Positions 42,610-52,856 of a stretch of 64,000 nt of DNA are shown piece after piece. How positions within the stretch are numbered: position 1 is the first letter of the stretch; each line of letters opens with the position of its first letter. Origin of the DNA: a virus. The DNA is taken from positions 1 to 64,000 of the IMG/VR virus record IMGVR_UViG_3300027513_000014; one strand, given 5' to 3'. The position numbers and the translations under genes were made by a program. The notes under the pieces are model-generated. The model searched no databases. It was given only the letters and a program-made list of their open reading frames with translations, and had not been told where the DNA came from.

Positions 42610-45600
42610 ATGACTATCAAAACTCGTAGTCAGATCAAGTCCGAAACCAATACGGACTTCCCGGATAATACTACGCGACTTATATCACCGGCTGACTTGC
42701 GTGGTCAGATGGATGATACTGTTGATAGCGCATTGCTGCGAGAAGACCTTCCCGGTTTGGATGTTTCTCCGTCGATTGTTACAACAGCTGGGCATGGAAC
42801 GAAGACACTTGAAGCATGGATGAATGACATTGGCACCGGAGTGCCGGGTCCTCCTGGTCCAGCTGGTGACGTGCGGTTTGTAGATAACATTACTGAAATG
42901 CGAGGTTTGACGGGGCTTGCGGTTGGGTCGATAGTTTATGTAGGGCCACGAGCCGATCAGTTTGTTGTAGTAGATAAACCTTCGTTAAGTACAGATGGCG
43001 GAACTGTTTTTATCCCTAATAGTGAATTAAGCGCTTACGTCGAGGAGGCGATCCCGCCAGCTTATTTTGTGGGCGCGTCTGGCGTGAACGTCGCGATGGA
43101 ATACGACTTGGATCACACCGGCATCGACTTCGAGAGCGTCGAACTGGTGCTAACGGACGGCGGCGAGACGATCGACATCTGGGGACTGCACGGACATCTC
43201 TTCCAGCCCTTCACCACAGAGCGGGCCAATTGCCCGCAGCTCCCGATCATAGACACCGGACGCGGTAAGATGCGTGATCCCTTTGCCGGGTTCACTGGCG
43301 TCAAGGGAGTGGATCATCCGGCTATTAGGACAGGCGGCGCACTGCTGCGCTATAAGTATGCCACCAGCGGGCTGCGGCTCAAGCGCATCACAGGACCGGT
43401 GTTTAGGCTCTCCTGGTGGCCTGTTGTGGCAGTGGAAGAGGAAACGCCAGGGAATCAAACGGATAACACCGGCAAGATTTGCTGGGCGGCGAACGCAGCG
43501 GCGTTGGCGAAGGCCGAGGTGGTGTTGATTGAGAATATGTATCACTATGCACGATGCGTAGAGTGGCCAGAGGGAGTGGAACTGAGGGGTTTCGGCCCTG
43601 GGCTTTCCGGCTTCCGGGTCATGGACAATGCGCAGCACACCCAGTTGCTGCTCACCTCATCCTCCGATGGTCTCGCCGCTGATCCTGCCGTCAATCCGCT
43701 ACTGAAGCCGGCTACCAGGCTTTGGTCCTACGACAGTGCTTTCCTGTCCAACTCCACTGCGTTCTACCCCGCCAGCGGTGCAAAGCGCATCCGCATCAGC
43801 GGCATTGAGTTCGACGGCAACCTCGCTGGTAACATGCGGTTTTGGGAGCAGCGGAACAAGGAATACGCCTATACCTATTCCAACCAGATAATCTCTCTGT
43901 TCAACGCCACTACATCTGCCGGCTTCTCCGTTACCAACCAGTCCAGTCGCGTTATTCCGGAGGGAATGATCGTCGAACTGCATAACGTGAAGATGCAAGG
44001 CTATTCACATCTCCTGACAGGACATCATTTTTGTACCTTCATCGGCACGGGCATGCTGGAATTGGGCGAGGTCCCTGCGGGCCACTGGATGTATTTTCCA
44101 GATGGGGTGTATGAGGATGTCCGCTGCACTGGTTGGGCGGTAGCGGATGGATTGCGGGTTAGGAAGTTCATAGCGAAGTCGGTTGAATTTGTGCTTTATG
44201 CGCCGCCCGCAGCGTTTTTCGACCAGCCAAGGACATTGGGATACGACGCGTTAGTTACACCGTTTACGGAGGGCCAGACGCTTACCGGCGGCACTTCCGG
44301 CGCGACTGGCCTCATCGATGATGTCAGGGCCCTTACCGGCACAACTGGGAACATCGATTTAATCAACATAGTCGGAACGTTCCAGAACAACGAGGTTATC
44401 ACAGACGGTCTGGGAGGTTCCGCCGACGCCAACGGCGTCCCTGCGGTGGGCGGTTATTACTTGCGTGGGATACAGCTCATATCCCTCACTGAGAACATGC
44501 CGCAGCAACAGTTGGCGGTAAACGCCTTTAACTACCCAGAACTTCCTCCGTATCGCGTGATCATTGACAACGTGTTCGTTGACGCGATGCGGCTGGACGA
44601 AGCTCCTGCTGGCAAAGAATATATGTATGCTATCCCGTTCCTGATCAACGCTGACAATTTCCATGTCAAGTCAGGGAAAATGCGCTTTGGGCAGCTTACG
44701 TCGACGCAGACGACTATCGTCAACACGCAAGGAAATGTGACGGGAGGGCATCCCTACAGAAACCAAGTCTACGAGAATCTGTCGATTGAATACAGTTCGC
44801 GTAAGGGCATTCAGCTTCTGGCGACTGGCTCGACTGATGGCGGTTATGCAGGCGTACAGTTTCGCAATATCACTTTCGAGGCGCGTGCCTCCACGCACAT
44901 GCCTGGTAATCCAGCACCAAGTGGTATCACTTACTTACTTGGCCTCTGGCGGTTTCATGAAAATACTCCCGTGGAACCAACACCGCCGAATTATGGCATA
45001 GCCTATGACGGGCGGGATTTTGAGTTCAGCGCCGTCACGGTGGATGCCACCCTGAACGGGAAGTACATCGACATCACGCCGCCCGATCCCGATGCTCCGG
45101 TGTATCGCTACTGGTTCTATTTCGCTGCCGCGCCGGGGGCAGGGTCTCCGCCAGCGGCAGGCGGTGCTACCTTGGTGCAGGTTTACGTGGCATCCGCCGG
45201 GGCTACAACTGCCACGGTAGCACAGGCATTCTCCTTGGCTGTCGCTGGCACTATCGCCTCCCCTGCCGTTTCCGCGCCCTACCTGACTGCGGCGACCTTC
45301 GGCACCAAGTCGGTGATCGGAGCCTACTCGCATTACCGCAGCGACGTGAAGGCTGGGTATGTCAGTGGCGATGTCACCGCCGCCGCCGGCATAACCACGG
45401 TGCTGCGTGCCTATCACCGCAACTACGAGCCATCCATCATCGCATTTGAGCGGTTTATAGCAGCTGATCCGGTCTATATCGCCCTGATGAATATCACTGA
45501 GATCGGGCCGAACCGGGACATTCATTTTACCTTCAAGGACTGTGTGTTCGGGGCGTTTCAGGTAGGGCTTATCCTGCTGAATGCGAACGGCGGGCTCGGC

Positions 45601-46155
45601 ACTGCCGCTGTGATAGCGATCAAAGACCAAGTGCATTGGGCTTTTGAGAATTCGACCTTCGATCTGCGCGACGGTTATTTGTCCTGGTCGAACCTCGATC
45701 TGTTCCTTTATGCCGGCAAGTTCCGCAATTGCCGGATAAGGACGCCGAGTGCTGTCACCGGGCTTTCCCTGCTCGGCTCCGGCTATGAGACATTGGTCAG
45801 CGAGCAGGGTGATGTCTACACGGGGACCCCTGGCGTCACGGCAGGGACGACCAGCACGACGATCGACATTCAGACCAAGCTGTTCTGGCAACCGAAGCCG
45901 GGGCAAATTCGTATCTACCCTGCCGATGCGGCGACTGCGGTGGTGTGGAACACCAACATGCCATTCGTGGAGTGGCGGAAGAGCGCTCGTCCGATCACTA
46001 CAACGTCCACTGCACTGGGTGGCACGGGGGCTTATTACCAAGGGCCGGATGGCATCAATGAGGACCGTCGCGCGCCTGTGCTGCGGCTGACTTTTGCCTC
46101 TGCGCTAGCGGCATCGCCGTTGAAGATCGGCTGGTCGGCGGCGGTTTCTCCATAG
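42610..46155 (+). CDS. large tail fibre/tailspike (1181 aa)
   Basis: 1181 residues. N-terminal helical attachment region (about 1-80), a very short collagen-like piece (VPGPPGPAGD), a domain with VDNITEMRGLTGLAVGS, then a long beta-helix-like stretch (about 300-850), with an inserted TLTGGTSGATG module, and beta-rich C-terminal domains. Tailspike-type, probably binding or cleaving surface polysaccharide. The largest fibre here. Confidence 0.75.
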   Translation: MTIKTRSQIKSETNTDFPDNTTRLISPADLRGQMDDTVDSALLREDLPGLDVSPSIVTTAGHGTKTLEAWMNDIGTGVPGPPGPAGDVRFVDNITEMRGLTGLAVGSIVYVGPRADQFVVVDKPSLSTDGGTVFIPNSELSAYVEEAIPPAYFVGASGVNVAMEYDLDHTGIDFESVELVLTDGGETIDIWGLHGHLFQPFTTERANCPQLPIIDTGRGKMRDPFAGFTGVKGVDHPAIRTGGALLRYKYATSGLRLKRITGPVFRLSWWPVVAVEEETPGNQTDNTGKICWAANAAALAKAEVVLIENMYHYARCVEWPEGVELRGFGPGLSGFRVMDNAQHTQLLLTSSSDGLAADPAVNPLLKPATRLWSYDSAFLSNSTAFYPASGAKRIRISGIEFDGNLAGNMRFWEQRNKEYAYTYSNQIISLFNATTSAGFSVTNQSSRVIPEGMIVELHNVKMQGYSHLLTGHHFCTFIGTGMLELGEVPAGHWMYFPDGVYEDVRCTGWAVADGLRVRKFIAKSVEFVLYAPPAAFFDQPRTLGYDALVTPFTEGQTLTGGTSGATGLIDDVRALTGTTGNIDLINIVGTFQNNEVITDGLGGSADANGVPAVGGYYLRGIQLISLTENMPQQQLAVNAFNYPELPPYRVIIDNVFVDAMRLDEAPAGKEYMYAIPFLINADNFHVKSGKMRFGQLTSTQTTIVNTQGNVTGGHPYRNQVYENLSIEYSSRKGIQLLATGSTDGGYAGVQFRNITFEARASTHMPGNPAPSGITYLLGLWRFHENTPVEPTPPNYGIAYDGRDFEFSAVTVDATLNGKYIDITPPDPDAPVYRYWFYFAAAPGAGSPPAAGGATLVQVYVASAGATTATVAQAFSLAVAGTIASPAVSAPYLTAATFGTKSVIGAYSHYRSDVKAGYVSGDVTAAAGITTVLRAYHRNYEPSIIAFERFIAADPVYIALMNITEIGPNRDIHFTFKDCVFGAFQVGLILLNANGGLGTAAVIAIKDQVHWAFENSTFDLRDGYLSWSNLDLFLYAGKFRNCRIRTPSAVTGLSLLGSGYETLVSEQGDVYTGTPGVTAGTTSTTIDIQTKLFWQPKPGQIRIYPADAATAVVWNTNMPFVEWRKSARPITTTSTALGGTGAYYQGPDGINEDRRAPVLRLTFASALAASPLKIGWSAAVSP

Positions 46156-46165
46156 AAGCATCACC

Positions 46166-46183
46166 CTAACCTTCAAAGGTAAC
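46166..46183. repeat. degenerate palindrome upstream of HNH gene
   Basis: CTAACCTTCAAAGGTAAC; its AAAGG is well placed as ribosome-binding site for the ATG at 46189. Confidence 0.55.
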
Positions 46184-46188
46184 TTCAC

Positions 46189-46461
46189 ATGCCCAAAGGC
46201 GTTCGCGATCCCAAGTCCCACAGGACCCCCGAACAGATAAAGAAAATGGATCGTGGGTATAACTCACGTCCATCTCAGATCAAAGAGCGCACGGAGAATA
46301 ACCAGGCGCGAGCTATGCTTGCCAAAGAGGGGCTTGTTAGGAAGGGCGATGACAAGGACGTGGATCACATCCGCCCACAACGTTCCGGAGGTTCCAACAA
46401 GCGCTCGAACCTCAGGGCGATCTCCAGGTCAAAGAACCGTGGCTGGCGGGACGGAGTGTGA
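46189..46461 (+). CDS. small HNH endonuclease-like protein
   Basis: 90 residues, very basic. The C-terminal half shows an HNH-type pattern: DVDHIRPQRSGGSNKRSNL then SRSKN, with the His-Asn-Asn spacing of small phage HNH nucleases. N-terminus KGVRDPKSHRTPEQIKKM. Last rightward gene; its end converges with the leftward gene at 46429, overlapping by 33 bp. Confidence 0.75.
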   Translation: MPKGVRDPKSHRTPEQIKKMDRGYNSRPSQIKERTENNQARAMLAKEGLVRKGDDKDVDHIRPQRSGGSNKRSNLRAISRSKNRGWRDGV

Positions 46462-46839
46462 ATTACCGTTTTCGGTAATCCATAAATCTACTGGTTCATA
46501 GCCTCTGGTCCCATATTTTTTATGTTTTTTACGAAACGCTATGCCCAGCGGCTCTAGCCGTTTACTTGCGTGCCATAGTGAAGTTCTAAGCATTATATCG
46601 GAACTGTTTGGCCCGCCATCCGGGTCCTCAAGCCATAGCCAAGCTTCCAGGTGCCTGACGGATAGCTTCATGGGTGATACGAGGATATAAGACACGATCC
46701 TGAACGAGCTTGGCCATAGGTGTGCTATCTGCACATATCCTTGTTCACGCCGACGACTTACCTCATTATGCCGGTAATCGAGATACACCGCATCGCTACC
46801 CGGTGGAGCGCAACGTCCCAGTGTCAATACTACCCTCAT
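46429..46839 (-). CDS. possible winged-helix protein
   Basis: 136 residues, start overlapping the primase-helicase stop (ATGA). Residues about 55-120 (LSVRHLEAWLWLED, then LWHASKRLEPLGIAFRKKH, then RGYEPVDLWI) resemble a winged-helix DNA-binding domain of the OmpR-like or similar kind, with a GYxxVDLW wing. It overlaps the converging HNH gene. A regulator role is inference. Palindrome copy 23 codes for ITENGN near its C-terminus. Confidence 0.55.
   Translation of the reverse strand: MRVVLTLGRCAPPGSDAVYLDYRHNEVSRRREQGYVQIAHLWPSSFRIVSYILVSPMKLSVRHLEAWLWLEDPDGGPNSSDIMLRTSLWHASKRLEPLGIAFRKKHKKYGTRGYEPVDLWITENGNSHSVPPATVL
46462..46479. repeat. dispersed palindrome, copy 23
   Basis: ATTACCGTTTTCGGTAAT, immediately after the HNH stop and in frame in the convergent gene, exactly at the switch of transcription direction. 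Confidence 0.88.
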
Positions 46840-49718
46840 GTCGAAGTTACTTTTTCCGGTAACTGGGCTTTTTCAAACAGATCGTTCACGTCTATCTCGT
46901 CGGTGAAGTCCAGCAAGCTCATTTCGAGCATATAGGTAAGCCCCGGAACGGCATGAGGTGTTCCCCCGCCAATGATGCCGTGTATTATCTTCATGCCATA
47001 TTTGTCCTTGAGCGCCGTCGTGAAAGCGTGACGGGATAGCTCCTTGATGTTCAGCCATTCACCCAGGGCGTTGGAACTGATACGCATGACCTTGTCGTCT
47101 ATCCCTATATGAATGAAAATAGCATCCAGCTTGGAAGTATCCCCCCTGACCTGTATTGACCCCGTAGCGGGTTTTCCTTTACCCTTGTGGACAATGTTAG
47201 TGAACAGCGTGTTACGCGCTCTGTGGGCATTGCAGAAGCTGCTGAGGATGGTTGTGACGTTAATGTCCTGCGTCATGTCCACGGCTTGTGTCTTAAGCTC
47301 TTCGCGCATGGACTTCAGCGTCCTCAGGAGAAATCCCCGCAAGGCTGATTCATCTATGGCCGTAAACCCGAGGCGGTTGGCGACTATAGCACCGACACAC
47401 AAGCACGCTATGACGCTTGTCCATAAACGCTCTTCGTTTTGTGCGTTTACCTCAATGTCCAGAGACTTCTGATAGGCCAGGACTTCTTCCTCCAAAGCAA
47501 GGAAGTTGGTTCCCAGATACTGCGAATACAGCTCGCCTATCTTGCCATGGTTGTCGTCCAGCTTGCCTACCAGCCTAGCCGCATCCGTCTTTGCTATCTG
47601 CCCGGTTCCGTCGCTATGGTCTACCTGTATCTCAAACAGGCGGTATACTCCTGCCGTAGTGGTATTAGTATGTCGTGTCACATAGTCCAGGAGCGAGTAG
47701 TTGCTGGTACTCACCATGATCGTCTGCCATGTGCCTGACTCCCTGCGCTTGGCTTGCGCGTTCATACGGTCTTTCTCCTTCCCATAGGAGATTTGAAACA
47801 CCATGCGGGCGTATTTCCTAGTGTCGTCAGGCTGCAAATCGTCCCAGAAGATGGGGAGACTTCTAAGCTCGCCGATCTTGTTCATTACTGAATTATCAGT
47901 ATCATGGAGCAAATTCTTCGCACGTACAGGATGACCCCACACAGCAAGCGCAGTGTCTAAAGCGGTACTCTTCCCAATCCCGCTTTCGCCAATACAGGAC
48001 ATCATCAGACCACGCATATTGGTGAACCTCACCAATGGGGCTGCGAAAGAACTTGCCAAGATAGCGTTCAAAGCTGGTCTGTTCTGGTTGGTAATCAGCT
48101 TCGCTGCGTCGATCCATGGCTGGACATCCCCGACTGGTGTGTAACTCCTTGCGGTGACAGTATCTGGCGTCTGTGCCACCTTTATGTCAGTGGGCGTGAA
48201 CAGCTTCCCCCCGAATGAGAACCCTTCCATCTTACCGTTGTTGACGTTCCATCCAAATGCTGAGGTGTTCACGACGGCATCCTTTGTTTGCTTCAGGGTC
48301 TGTATCCACGCCACGAGAAACTCTCCTATAGGCTTGTTGTTGTAGTCATAGATTGTTATCCCTTGCCGGCTGAGTTCCCTTCTAAGGTCATTAGTTGCAC
48401 CTACTACCTCGAACGGCAAGTGAATCTGCTCGATTTTTCCCGGCTCTGTCTCGGCTTCGAAATTCAGTATCCATGGATTACGCTGAACCCATCCGTTCCC
48501 TATTGGCGTATTGCACACAACAACTATAACCGGCTCGCCCTCTTTGTTCTTGGTGGATTTTATGATGTATCCGTGCGAGTTACGTGAATAATTAGGAGGC
48601 AAAACGCTTACGATATTCGCCCCTGCTGACGGCATGGGGGGTGGAGCCCGAAGCACAAAATGTAATGGCGTCTTGTCCTTGCTAAGATGAATACACGCCT
48701 CGCACTGTTTTGAACCGTTTCCCTTGAACGTATTACATCTTGGCCACCCCAGGTCTTTCTCGGCGTGTTCACGCAGCACCCTGCTATATTCTTTTTCAGT
48801 TCGCTCCGGGCTATAGGTCGCATATCCCTTGCTCATTATGTGAGCGGCTTCTACACCTTCTTCCAAAAACGTGGCTAAACCCAAAGTATGAAACCACAGC
48901 GGATTAAGGTTATCCCTGCCGTGGGTGTCCACCGTATGCTTGATGAACGGACACACGTCAGCTACCTGCTGCAGCTTGGCTTTGGGTATGGAGTCTATGC
49001 CGGCTGACAAATCATCGTTGGTGGCGGGCGGAAGTAGAGGGAACAGTGGGTTAGTGTCGGCACCATTGGTGTGTGGCCGTGAAGTTAACCGCCCCCCTGC
49101 GTGGGTCGTTACCGGAAACGGTAACAGTGCTTTTTGTATGTCGGCTATGTCGTAGTCAGTATCCGTCAGGACCTTTAGCTCTACGCGCTTCCCACGCTTG
49201 AAATTGGTCGTATCGGGTATGCGAAGAACCCTGGCACTGTCTGTTGTGACTTGCGTATCGCACTTTAGACCAAGCTGGGTTGTAGCCTCAACGAGTGAGC
49301 TTGCGAGCGGGTGCCACTCGTCCAGCGTCAAGGCACGCGAGAATGTCCAGTAAACATGATAGCCGCCACCTGTGTGAACTATCACACTCGGCATCATATG
49401 TGTCTTGGTGACGAAGCTCTTTAAGGCTGTAGAAGTGTCCTGCTCGGACGGGTAATCCTTGAAGTCAAGGTCCATGAACAACGCTTTGAAGAGTATGGCG
49501 TTGTCCCCGTTTCGCTTATGCTGTTCACGTTGCAGACTTTGGCATACATAAACATCAACAGTGTTTGTGCCGTTACCATCAAGGTAACTCAAAGCTTCCG
49601 GGATAGACCGGAAACCCCGTGTGCTTTGTATCGGTGCATGAACAGTTATGAATCCCCCGGCCCCGTTATGGGGCCAGGGAAGTACCTTCGCCAGATATTT
49701 TTCTTGAGCGCTGCTCAT
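46836..49718 (-). CDS. primase-helicase (AEP-type primase plus DUF927-like ATPase)
   Basis: 960 residues. N-terminal primase domain of the archaeo-eukaryotic type: FMDLDF (two metal-binding Asp, about 93), VHTGGGYHVYW with catalytic-type His (about 120), SARVLRIPDTTNFK (about 168). A Cys cluster (CNTFKGNGSKQCEAC, about 335) may bind zinc. The C-terminal half has Walker A GESGIGKST (about 576) and Walker B FWDDLQ, like DUF927/D5-type helicases. Should unwind and prime phage DNA. The ATG has AAAGG 8 nt upstream. Confidence 0.82.
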   Translation of the reverse strand: MSSAQEKYLAKVLPWPHNGAGGFITVHAPIQSTRGFRSIPEALSYLDGNGTNTVDVYVCQSLQREQHKRNGDNAILFKALFMDLDFKDYPSEQDTSTALKSFVTKTHMMPSVIVHTGGGYHVYWTFSRALTLDEWHPLASSLVEATTQLGLKCDTQVTTDSARVLRIPDTTNFKRGKRVELKVLTDTDYDIADIQKALLPFPVTTHAGGRLTSRPHTNGADTNPLFPLLPPATNDDLSAGIDSIPKAKLQQVADVCPFIKHTVDTHGRDNLNPLWFHTLGLATFLEEGVEAAHIMSKGYATYSPERTEKEYSRVLREHAEKDLGWPRCNTFKGNGSKQCEACIHLSKDKTPLHFVLRAPPPMPSAGANIVSVLPPNYSRNSHGYIIKSTKNKEGEPVIVVVCNTPIGNGWVQRNPWILNFEAETEPGKIEQIHLPFEVVGATNDLRRELSRQGITIYDYNNKPIGEFLVAWIQTLKQTKDAVVNTSAFGWNVNNGKMEGFSFGGKLFTPTDIKVAQTPDTVTARSYTPVGDVQPWIDAAKLITNQNRPALNAILASSFAAPLVRFTNMRGLMMSCIGESGIGKSTALDTALAVWGHPVRAKNLLHDTDNSVMNKIGELRSLPIFWDDLQPDDTRKYARMVFQISYGKEKDRMNAQAKRRESGTWQTIMVSTSNYSLLDYVTRHTNTTTAGVYRLFEIQVDHSDGTGQIAKTDAARLVGKLDDNHGKIGELYSQYLGTNFLALEEEVLAYQKSLDIEVNAQNEERLWTSVIACLCVGAIVANRLGFTAIDESALRGFLLRTLKSMREELKTQAVDMTQDINVTTILSSFCNAHRARNTLFTNIVHKGKGKPATGSIQVRGDTSKLDAIFIHIGIDDKVMRISSNALGEWLNIKELSRHAFTTALKDKYGMKIIHGIIGGGTPHAVPGLTYMLEMSLLDFTDEIDVNDLFEKAQLPEKVTST
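46846..46863. repeat. dispersed palindrome, copy 24 (in CDS)
   Basis: GTTACTTTTTCCGGTAAC, in frame as LPEKVT at the C-terminus of the primase-helicase and just upstream of the next ATG. Confidence 0.92.
49108..49125. repeat. dispersed palindrome, copy 25 (in CDS)
   Basis: GTTACCGGAAACGGTAAC inside the primase-helicase gene, read as Leu-Pro-Phe-Pro-Val-Thr between the primase domain and the Cys-cluster region. Confidence 0.92.
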
Positions 49719-50926: not shown

Positions 50927-51637
50927 TTAACTACGACGAACGCCTACAACTTGTGTCACAGAGAAGTTGACGCCCGGAGGGGGGTTACCGGTAACGGTAA
51001 CAAAATCCGTGACAGCGGTTTTGTTGGCCCGCTTGTCGATCAGCTCGTATTGCTTGCTTTCCAGGATGTAGTCCCAGAACGCGTTTGGATCAGCTACCGA
51101 CGCTGATGTTCTGCGCGTGGCGTAGACCGTGCCTGAGTTCGTCCGGGCAGACTCGACACCCAGGGAGTTGAGATGATTCAGCAACAAGCCGTTCAAGCCT
51201 TCAAGCGCGTCCTTGTAGGGCTTGATGGCTTCGTCGTGGGCCTTCTCCATGTCTCGGATTTTGTCCCGGATTTGCACGTATTGATCTACGCGCTGGTCGA
51301 TTGTCTTCGGTGCAGGTGTGGGTGCATTCATGGTCTTTTCCTTCTTTGATGTTAACGCGTATACTCTCCGCATTCGTCCATTTTGCAGTCGTTTTCCGCC
51401 GGTATAATATAACCACCCTTTCTCTACCAGCTCGGGCACACGGCTACGGTAGGTGCTGCGATGGTCGTTATAAAAATTCTCCAGATCGAGCTGCGTAGCA
51501 TTCGGCACTGTGCAAAAGAAGTTGATCACTTCCTGATGTAAGATTCTTAGCCGCTCCGAATCAATATGTTCTGCGGCTTCCCGGCTGGTGTCGGGATCAC
51601 TTCGCCGGTAACGATGGTGGGTATCGAAATCAGTCAT
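50927..51637 (-). CDS. winged-helix protein with internal start for a second domain
   Basis: 236 residues. Residues 1-95 look like a winged-helix domain (DPDTSREAAEHI, VPELVEKGWLYYTGGKR). The second part (103-236) is a helical domain (DQRVDQYVQIRDKIRDMEKA) of a type common in phage replication regions. Met103 has a strong ribosome-binding site (GAAGGAAAAGACC-ATG at 51331), so a separate 134-residue product is likely. The first ATG follows a degenerate TIGR repeat rather than a good ribosome-binding site. Palindrome copy 26 codes for VTVTGN near the C-terminus. Confidence 0.65.
   Translation of the reverse strand: MTDFDTHHRYRRSDPDTSREAAEHIDSERLRILHQEVINFFCTVPNATQLDLENFYNDHRSTYRSRVPELVEKGWLYYTGGKRLQNGRMRRVYALTSKKEKTMNAPTPAPKTIDQRVDQYVQIRDKIRDMEKAHDEAIKPYKDALEGLNGLLLNHLNSLGVESARTNSGTVYATRRTSASVADPNAFWDYILESKQYELIDKRANKTAVTDFVTVTGNPPPGVNFSVTQVVGVRRS
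50984..51001. repeat. dispersed palindrome, copy 26 (in CDS)
   Basis: GTTACCGGTAACGGTAAC, in frame within the wHTH gene. Confidence 0.9.
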
Positions 51638-51860
51638 CGCTCTGTGTACTTGGTACTCTCATTGACTCTGGCTCGCTCCATCCTAATGGCGCTCTCCAAA
51701 GGCGTGGCTCGCTCTTCGCAGATGGTTCCCTCGGTAGACATGGCTCGCTCTGCAAGCATTGGTTTTCTCAACTGGCTTGGCTCGCTCATCATTTAGTGGT
51801 TCTCTCTTATGATTTGGCTCGCTCGACGGAACTGGTACTCTCAACCATGTTGGCTTATAT
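51633..51860. repeat. TIGR-like array 1 (downstream of tasA)
   Basis: Two 10-nt repeats alternate on the plus strand with 8-9-nt unique spacers. R1 (TGGTACTCTC and variants) starts at 51651, 51687, 51723, 51760, 51797, 51833; R2 (TGGCTCGCTC, invariant) starts at 51669, 51705, 51741, 51778, 51815. Degenerate R2 copies close the array at 51633 (GTCATCGCTC) and 51851 (TGGCTTATAT, containing the tasA stop). Period 36-37 nt. Spacer pairs around each R1: tgtgtact/attgactc, catcctaa/caaaggcg, ttcgcaga/ggtagaca, tgcaagcat/aactggct, atcatttag/ttatgatt, gacggaac/aaccatgt. Known TIGR arrays give guide RNAs of about 36 nt made of edge repeat, spacer A, loop repeat, spacer B; here R2 fits the edge and R1 the loop. 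Transcribed strand is not determined. Confidence 0.85.
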
Positions 51861-52649
51861 CTTATGCACATGCCCCATATGTACAATAGGGTAAGGCAAC
51901 GGAGGAGCTATCCCGAACTTCTGTTTGAACATCTCTTCGTGCAGATGCGCGAGAAACAGCTTCACAGCATATCGCCGCGCACGCGCATGGATGTGAGCCG
52001 GACTTAATTTCCCACCGGAATAGTGCTTGAACGCATCAGTGTTTTTATCGAACTTCTTAAGCTTCAACGCTTCCGCAGCCTGAGTCGCGAAGAATCCAGC
52101 ATCGTTGCGTTGAATTTCCAACTCCTTGCGCTTCTTGTAAAGCTCCCCATAGAAACAGCTGGGGCGGTTACAGTTCTTCACGAACGACTCACCAGCTTTC
52201 CAGCAAAGCGTTTTCAGCATTGCATTATGGGGCCGCTTCTTGCCCTTGTCCCACTTGCGCGTAGGGTCAAGGCCAGCAAACGCCCAGATGTGCCCCACGG
52301 TAGGTGCCTTAGTGATGTCGATGTGCGCCAGCAAACCGGCGCTGATAACCGGCCCGATGCCGACGATACCGATCAACCATTTGCCCACTGGATGCGCCTC
52401 CACGTAAGACTGCAGCGCGCGTTTCGTCTGGTTCTCCAGTTCTTCCGACTGTGAAGTCAGATGTTCCAGCGTCTCGTGCGGCTCCGTGGGCATGGAACGC
52501 ACCTGACCGGCAGCACGGATGCGCTGACGCTGCATTTGGTAGTAATTATCTACTAGGAATCTCGCCTGCGCGGCAGTCATGGTGGCAGCGGCTTTGCGTA
52601 GATCGCGGGTGAGTTTTGCTACGCTAACCCAGGTGTCCTCGATTTCCAT
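51855..52649 (-). CDS. tasA: TasA-type Nop-domain protein (IS110 C-terminal-domain-like)
   Basis: 264 residues from the ATG at 52647-52649, chosen over the upstream GTG because AAGGGAG lies 8 nt before it. N-terminal helical region (about 1-85), then GIVGIGPVISAGLLAHI (about 94-110), HIWAFAGLDP, KKRPHNAMLKTLCWKAG, and a helical C-terminus. This is the pattern of the Transposase_20 (C-terminal) domain of IS110/IS116 elements, related to Nop domains that bind kink-turn RNA. The N-terminal RuvC-like DEDD nuclease domain of IS110 and any HNH motif are missing, as in TasA proteins. Arrays of short repeats flank it on both sides and their terminal repeats run into its start and stop regions. Expected to bind array RNAs and target DNA without cutting. 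Often annotated as a transposase, which the context argues against. Confidence 0.82.
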   Translation of the reverse strand: MEIEDTWVSVAKLTRDLRKAAATMTAAQARFLVDNYYQMQRQRIRAAGQVRSMPTEPHETLEHLTSQSEELENQTKRALQSYVEAHPVGKWLIGIVGIGPVISAGLLAHIDITKAPTVGHIWAFAGLDPTRKWDKGKKRPHNAMLKTLCWKAGESFVKNCNRPSCFYGELYKKRKELEIQRNDAGFFATQAAEALKLKKFDKNTDAFKHYSGGKLSPAHIHARARRYAVKLFLAHLHEEMFKQKFGIAPPLPYPIVHMGHVHKI

Positions 52650-52650
52650 T

Positions 52651-52842
52651 TTAAGCACTCCCTTGGATTGGTACTCTCAGAATGGTTTGGTTCGCTCCCC
52701 GTTTTTGGTTCTCTCGCTTGGAGTGGCTCGCTCGGAGCTTTTGGTACTCTCGAAGGGCTTGGCTCGCTCGGCCTCGTTTGGTACTCTCAGTCTCATTGGC
52801 TCGCTCGTTGCGTCAGGTTCTCTCAGCATCGCTGGCTCGTTA
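52651..52842. repeat. TIGR-like array 2 (upstream of tasA)
   Basis: Same alternating pattern. R1 starts: 52669, 52706, 52742, 52779, 52815 (TGGTACTCTC, TGGTTCTCTC, AGGTTCTCTC). R2 starts: 52688, 52724, 52760, 52797 (TGGCTCGCTC, one TGGTTCGCTC), closed by degenerate R2 at 52651 (TTAAGCACTC, in the tasA ribosome-binding region) and 52833 (TGGCTCGTTA, running into palindrome copy 27). Spacer pairs around each R1: ccttggat/agaatggtt, cccgtttt/gcttggag, ggagcttt/gaagggct, ggcctcgtt/agtctcat, gttgcgtc/agcatcgc. Period 36-37 nt. All spacers differ from each other and from array 1, giving five more guide units. Confidence 0.85.
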
Positions 52843-52856
52843 CCATTTACGGTAAC
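52839..52856. repeat. dispersed palindrome, copy 27 (array boundary)
   Basis: GTTACCATTTACGGTAAC. It ends array 2 and contains the stop codon of the zinc-ribbon gene at 52847. Confidence 0.9.

Follow-up and report, generated by a model that had tools for sequence, protein, structure and literature searches.

A nuclease-free TIGR-TasA system in a soil-type phage and a statistical coding-DNA signature in the guides of its relatives

What would an RNA-guided protein that carries no nuclease do with its guides, and where might these guides come from? TIGR-Tas systems were described in 2025, when their natural targets had not been identified and the origin of their spacers was left open (Faure et al. 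2025, PMC12045711). The question is raised here by a locus in the IMG/VR virus record IMGVR_UViG_3300027513_000014, from a bacterial virus of soil type; the 64,000 nucleotides analysed (positions 1 to 64,000), referred to below as the window, comprise all but 487 bases of this 64,487-base record. The locus, a tasA gene lying between two arrays of short guide units, is a member of the TIGR-TasA systems, of the kind already published (Faure et al. 2025, PMC12045711). Because the phage TIGR-TasA clade is large and its repeats are nearly uniform, thousands of guides can be compared, and the comparison yields a signature of how targets are arranged in vivo, an argument against self-targeting and a record of guide turnover. 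The three elements on which the argument turns are the following.

52838 to 52658, minus strand: TIGR array U, five units, upstream of tasA, reading on the minus strand GAGCCA-GCGATGCT-GAGAGAACCT-GACGCAAC-GAGCGAGCCA-ATGAGACT-GAGAGTACCA-AACGAGGCC-GAGCGAGCCA-AGCCCTTC-GAGAGTACCA-AAAGCTCC-GAGCGAGCCA-CTCCAAGC-GAGAGAACCA-AAAACGGG-GAGCGAACCA-AACCATTCT-GAGAGTACCA-ATCCAAGG-GAG
52649 to 51855, minus strand: tasA, a solo Nop-domain protein of 264 residues (from the open reading frame list, the PDB matches and Foldseek)
51855 to 51638, minus strand: TIGR array D, six units, downstream of tasA, reading on the minus strand AGCCA-ACATGGTT-GAGAGTACCA-GTTCCGTC-GAGCGAGCCA-AATCATAA-GAGAGAACCA-CTAAATGAT-GAGCGAGCCA-AGCCAGTT-GAGAAAACCA-ATGCTTGCA-GAGCGAGCCA-TGTCTACC-GAGGGAACCA-TCTGCGAA-GAGCGAGCCA-CGCCTTTG-GAGAGCGCCA-TTAGGATG-GAGCGAGCCA-GAGTCAAT-GAGAGTACCA-AGTACACA-GAGCG

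On the minus strand, an edge repeat (GAGCGAGCCA) alternates with a loop repeat (GAGAGNACCA) whose middle is variable (GAGAGTACCA, GAGAGAACCA, GAGAAAACCA, GAGGGAACCA and GAGAGCGCCA). The repeats are 10 nucleotides (nt) long and the spacers 8 nt, some of them 9, so that the period is 36-37 nt. Array U starts with a 5'-truncated edge, GAGCCA, and finishes with a 3'-truncated one, GAG; in array D the corresponding ends are AGCCA and GAGCG. An earlier note on this DNA had placed a gene between two arrays at these positions and counted 11 guide units, and both points hold. Its upper boundary of 52856 has to be moved to 52838, as the stretch 52839-52856 is a hairpin, and its description of edge and loop repeats alternating with 8-9-nt spacers is right except that the loop repeat varies in its middle. 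Within the window, long runs of linked repeats at steps of 18-19 nt occur only at this locus (a shuffled-sequence control gave 2-17 linked pairs per strand altogether). An Rfam search returned no match, and PADLOC matched neither tasA nor three of its neighbours; CRISPR-Cas was rejected on this last count and because the arrays have two 10-nt repeats instead of a single one of 25-36 nt.

According to Faure et al. (2025, PMC12045711), TIGR-Tas systems combine a Nop-domain Tas protein with two alternating repeats of 8-12 nt and spacers of about 9 nt, and the box motifs of edge and loop covary. In a sequence search of the PDB, the protein encoded by tasA matched TasR (9mty, 1.8e-14) and TasH (21kl, 1.9e-12), and when its AlphaFold2 model (pLDDT, the predicted local distance difference test, 75.5; alignment of seven sequences) was submitted to Foldseek, the top 11 matches were all TasR or TasH (E 1.9e-5 to 1.7e-3; the best at probability 1.00), followed by IS110-type recombinases. 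The model thus has the Nop-like fold that the earlier note had proposed to look for. Neither Pfam nor the model revealed a nuclease domain or a nuclease extension, and 264 residues leave no room for one, in keeping with the nuclease-less Nop-type protein first suggested. The co-occurrence of protein and arrays was approached from both sides. A protein search of IMG/VR retrieved seven relatives (L002-L008), 40-56% identical, and all seven adjoin arrays with the same repeats; relatives with the protein and no repeats, which would have spoken against the assignment, were not among them. Conversely, a search of IMG/VR for the edge-loop-edge DNA pattern gave at least 119 stretches, and TasA is encoded in 89 of the 106 distinct viral records picked by array DNA alone (several of the other 17 are short fragments). 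In 104 contigs, edge and loop repeats agree in their last base, the only position at which covariation was assessed, with r 0.94 (41 A/A, 41 G/G and 0 discordant). Genomes of GTDB with TasA include Acidobacteriaceae bacterium KBS 96 and Halomonas sp. NO4, both with adjoining arrays, and in the former the truncated-edge layout beside tasA is repeated. Together with the likeness to TasR and TasH, the truncated edges, the covariation and the array-selected records bear out the TasA-type reading proposed at the outset.

The geometry of the target was addressed starting from TasR, whose two spacers pair with opposite strands of the target at adjoining sites, gaps of 0-2 being tolerated (Faure et al. 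2025, PMC12045711). From the cutting rule given there we worked out that a target should read A and then the reverse complement of B, RC(B). The comparison drew on about 1,600 independent units from related phages, in which 8+8 nt spacers are found in 2070 of 2289 units, and used a three-periodic coding model to see whether A and RC(B) are read in a common frame. With gap 0 (modulo 3), the frame coherence reached z 6.5 in 1880 units and, after removal of similar units, z 4.7 (n=1322), a value attained by 0 of 200 permutations; it was positive in both halves of the contigs. No such coherence was found for neighbouring spacers spanning an edge, nor for A and B joined directly. A separate measure, the base-to-base joining gain from A to RC(B), gave z 4.1 and was absent for RC(B)+A; frame coherence being defined modulo 3, it is this junction measure that favours a gap-free contact. 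When arrays were masked and each half of the contigs was scored with models trained on the other, z was 4.0 for the frame and 3.5 for the junction. In a replication set of 303 units, obtained in subsequent scans and reserved before the test, the frame z was 1.85 (permutation p 0.033), and 2.05 with masking, the junction then giving 1.7. These results lend statistical support to the notion that A and RC(B) form one contiguous piece of coding DNA, with no gap. The guides showed no preference for the coding strand, which is what sampling from any genome dense in coding sequence would give.

The guides also turn over faster than tasA. Phages whose tasA genes are at least 97% identical in nucleotide sequence share 91% of their units, a figure that is 19% at 93-97% identity, 9% at 88-93% and 20% at 83-88%, and below 78% none are shared (0 of 72 pairs). 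Near-identical units occur within and between arrays far above chance, which indicates that units are copied and then mutate. Synonymous changes between near-duplicate units amounted to 5 of 22, 2.3 being expected, numbers too few to support a claim.

How such a system would act can be sketched, likely enough, by analogy with TasR. An operon transcript would carry array U, tasA and array D, and the arrays would probably be cut in a TasA-dependent manner into 36-nt tigRNAs made of half an edge, spacer A, a loop, spacer B and another half edge. Each tigRNA would be gripped by a TasA dimer, with the GAG and CCA boxes in edge and loop as the points of contact, and, on double-stranded DNA, A would pair with one strand and B with the other at adjoining sites with no gap. 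As TasA has no nuclease, the action should be one of obstruction and not of cutting, transcription or replication presumably being blocked by the occupation and bending of the DNA; the guides are renewed fast, much as in an arms race. The targets would most likely be coding regions of foreign DNA, that is, of rival phages and other mobile elements, host genes being less likely. That the target is foreign coding DNA has statistical support; we infer, in short, that the system interferes with foreign DNA by means of quickly changing guides and no nuclease. We hold it to be quite probable that this reading is right as a whole: a TIGR-TasA system that binds A + RC(B) without a gap, blocks foreign coding DNA and quickly renews its guides. 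A further proposal, that every unit derives from, or was selected against, 16 contiguous bp of foreign coding DNA corresponding to A + RC(B), so that the arrays of these soil phages constitute a fast-changing, nuclease-free memory, has in our estimation an even chance of being correct; if true, it would answer the question of spacer origin left open by Faure et al.

Several observations weigh against this interpretation. In 2.9 Mb of array-bearing phages, matches that were exact or had one mismatch showed no excess over permuted pairs; scans of IMG/VR for four guide targets gave 17, 113, 12 and 16 matches, which is chance-like; and two guides of Halomonas NO4 had 0 matches in 275 genomes of the host family. 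The spacer-pair search that the earlier note had recommended thus came out near chance in the array-bearing phages and empty for the two guides. Even with TasR, no block of phage or of conjugation was observed (Faure et al. 2025, PMC12045711). In addition, the coding difference of the guides, 0.035-0.049, is about a third of the 0.108 obtained with true genomic 16-mers of the same phages, which implies that not all guides have to fit, or that their sources differ in codon usage. A codon model from unrelated, AT-richer viruses gave only z 2.2 for the frame and 1.1 for the junction. Individual targets were not identified in the searched phages, the IMG/VR scans or the 275 genomes. An early small excess of matches in array-bearing phages did not hold up, an in-frame search of these phages that allowed for synonymous changes gave no clear target, and a podovirus-type protein family with the motif FHLDI, a tempting candidate, received no support.

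The alternative that survives best, albeit as an unlikely one, is that the guides silence genes of the host, either defence systems or genes involved in takeover, and not rival mobile elements. The coding-DNA signature is silent on whose genes are matched, silencing of host defences would benefit a phage of the lytic type, and defence genes are variable. The fast turnover is, however, not what conserved host genes would lead one to expect, and the unmatched Halomonas guides also speak against it; the preference for rivals over host genes is a judgement based on these two points.

A considerably less probable possibility is that the guides are directed at the phage itself, either regulating its genes, as the earlier note had also considered, or marking its DNA for partition, packaging or replication timing. 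Some published TasA loci share an operon with a ParB-like gene (PMC12045711), and phage regulators are often small and free of nucleases. Yet no ParB-like gene was seen beside tasA in the window, and a search of 2228 units against their own genomes revealed no excess of matches (0 exact with 0.1 expected, and 3 with one mismatch with 7.6 expected from permuted pairs), so this part of the note was not supported; the 11 units of the window have 3-4 mismatches at best in their own genome. Fast turnover between close relatives likewise argues against such a role.

It is more doubtful still that TasA assists recombination or integration by bending specific DNA sites, a role that Faure et al. (2025, PMC12045711) suggested for TasA: TasR does bend its target by nearly 180 degrees (PMC12045711), but eleven or more fast-changing guides with a coding-DNA signature are unlike recombination sites.

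A degenerate transposase of the IS110 family, with a repeat region resembling a bridge RNA, was considered and rejected as scarcely credible. Transposase_20 is the sole Pfam match of TasA above the cut-off, barely so (6.8e-5); it is the only Pfam match in 6 of 7 members, besides one sub-threshold match in the TasA of the window. Furthermore, the family PHROG 4285 (phrog_4285), which matches TasA over its full length, is labelled as a transposase (integration and excision), although it is probably a misnamed TasA family. IS621 scored only 0.17 in the sequence search, far from TasR and TasH, and in Foldseek the values were 2e-5 for TasR/TasH and 1e-2 for IS621. Ends of a transposon were not seen, although no search aimed at them was made. 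IS110/IS621 recombinases share a related RNA-binding, Nop-like domain, but they have a DEDD/RuvC domain, for which TasA gave no N-terminal Pfam match (it begins at the helical Nop region), and a bridge RNA in place of tens of units with alternating repeats. It is equally implausible that the repeats are of a protein-coding tandem type or of some other kind that yields no guides: the 36-nt period keeps the opposite strand open, with reading frames containing ARS/VLS motifs in relatives, but in the window the frame does not survive the 9-nt spacers, the repeats are conserved and the spacers are not, and direct A+B lacks frame coherence (z 0.75 or lower, cross-trained with arrays masked) while the inverted geometry has it, on which ground this explanation was discarded.

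Retaining, then, the interpretation of foreign coding DNA bound by a nuclease-free TasA, the locus can be compared with known systems. Phage TasA, solo Nop proteins and dual-repeat arrays were already published (Faure et al. 2025, PMC12045711). The TIGR-TasA of Flavonifractor plautii (FpTIGR) likewise has a solo Nop protein in a phage setting, alternating edge and loop repeats in units of about 36 nt, arrays on both sides of the gene and truncated terminal edges. The window differs from it in its spacers of 8 nt and not 9, in its repeats (GAGCGAGCCR / GAGAGNRCCR, with GAG as the 5'-side box, which is UG in TasR), in that its arrays are embedded in an operon, run over stop and start signals and lack a terminator-like site behind them on the coding strand, and in that some relatives carry arrays more than 5 kb from tasA. 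The TIGR-TasH of Salicola phage CGphi29 (SpTIGR) is also phage-borne, with 16 nt of guide per unit and a related Nop domain (28% identity over 56% of the window TasA), but TasH has an N-terminal HNH nuclease. TIGR-TasR (PDB 9mty) shares the Nop fold, the dual-repeat array and the CCA box, and its gap-free A + RC(B) geometry agrees with the signal in the relatives of the window; it has, in contrast, a RuvC nuclease. What is new here is a member with 8-nt spacers and GAG/CCR boxes, a repeat family that the supplementary tables of Faure et al. may hold. The target signature and the absence of self-targets are, to our knowledge, unpublished, few TIGR-Tas papers having been covered. The function of a nuclease-free TasA becomes testable, and Acidobacteriaceae KBS 96 and Halomonas NO4 provide named loci in isolate genomes.

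Around the locus, the following features are found.

54738 to 53170, minus strand: SNF2-type helicase
53173 to 52847, minus strand: small zinc-ribbon-like protein, 108 residues (open reading frame list; weak zinc-ribbon matches only)
52839 to 52856, minus strand: hairpin GTTACC-GTAAAT-GGTAAC (from the sequence and the fold of a 36-nt stretch, -10.7 kcal/mol)
51637 to 50927, minus strand: phage gene after array D, 236 residues (DUF7307 / Pam3 gp33-like, below the Pfam cut-off)

All parts of the locus and its neighbours lie on the minus strand in one gene run, in the order SNF2-type helicase, zinc-ribbon-like protein, array U, tasA, array D, the 236-residue protein, a 375-residue protein and a primase-helicase. 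The zinc-ribbon-like protein precedes array U in the same operon and is not known as a part of the system; its stop codon lies within the hairpin, directly 5' of array U. The arrays are embedded in the operon. The tasA gene starts with an ATG at 52649 (an alternative GTG at 52658 would give 267 residues), and its stop codon, 51855-51857, is overlapped by the first edge of array D. The last truncated edges sit at the expected ribosome-binding sites of tasA and the next gene: the final GAG of array U and the preceding AAGG form the ribosome-binding stretch of tasA, and the final GAGCG of array D abuts the ATG of the next gene (51637). A terminator after the array is typical of TIGR-Tas but not defining, and none was found behind array U or array D on the minus strand.

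Among the relatives, 13 of the 50 contigs with good coverage have an array separated from tasA by more than 5 kb; in G076, G054, G047, G022, G113 and G085 arrays are up to about 25 kb away, on either strand, and a single phage can hold as many as 76 distinct units. Taken over all loci, G is scarce (0.15-0.17) at the first position of both spacers, and in spacer B so is C, perhaps a preference in binding or processing. The tasA of one relative (L007, G045:C1:53621-54430) has several stops and is probably also frameshifted, while dozens of adjacent array units are kept. Distant TasA-like hypothetical proteins are encoded by isolate phages of Microcystis and Gordonia (PP438412.1:21463-22059 and MH271305.1:32431-33069, the latter on the minus strand).

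The window phage is kin to Rhizobium phages RHph_TM27A and relatives (66% for the capsid protein and 38% for the primase-helicase). In those phages the genes from helicase to primase follow each other in the same order, but there is neither a tasA nor an array; RHph_TM27A encodes a homologue of the 236-residue protein. A primase-helicase homologue of a Rhizobium phage (MN988461.1:42248-45331) carries the annotation 'putative integrase', which looks wrong. Finally, the GC skew of the window changes sign near 46 kb (about 44000-48000), where the genes switch from the plus to the minus strand.
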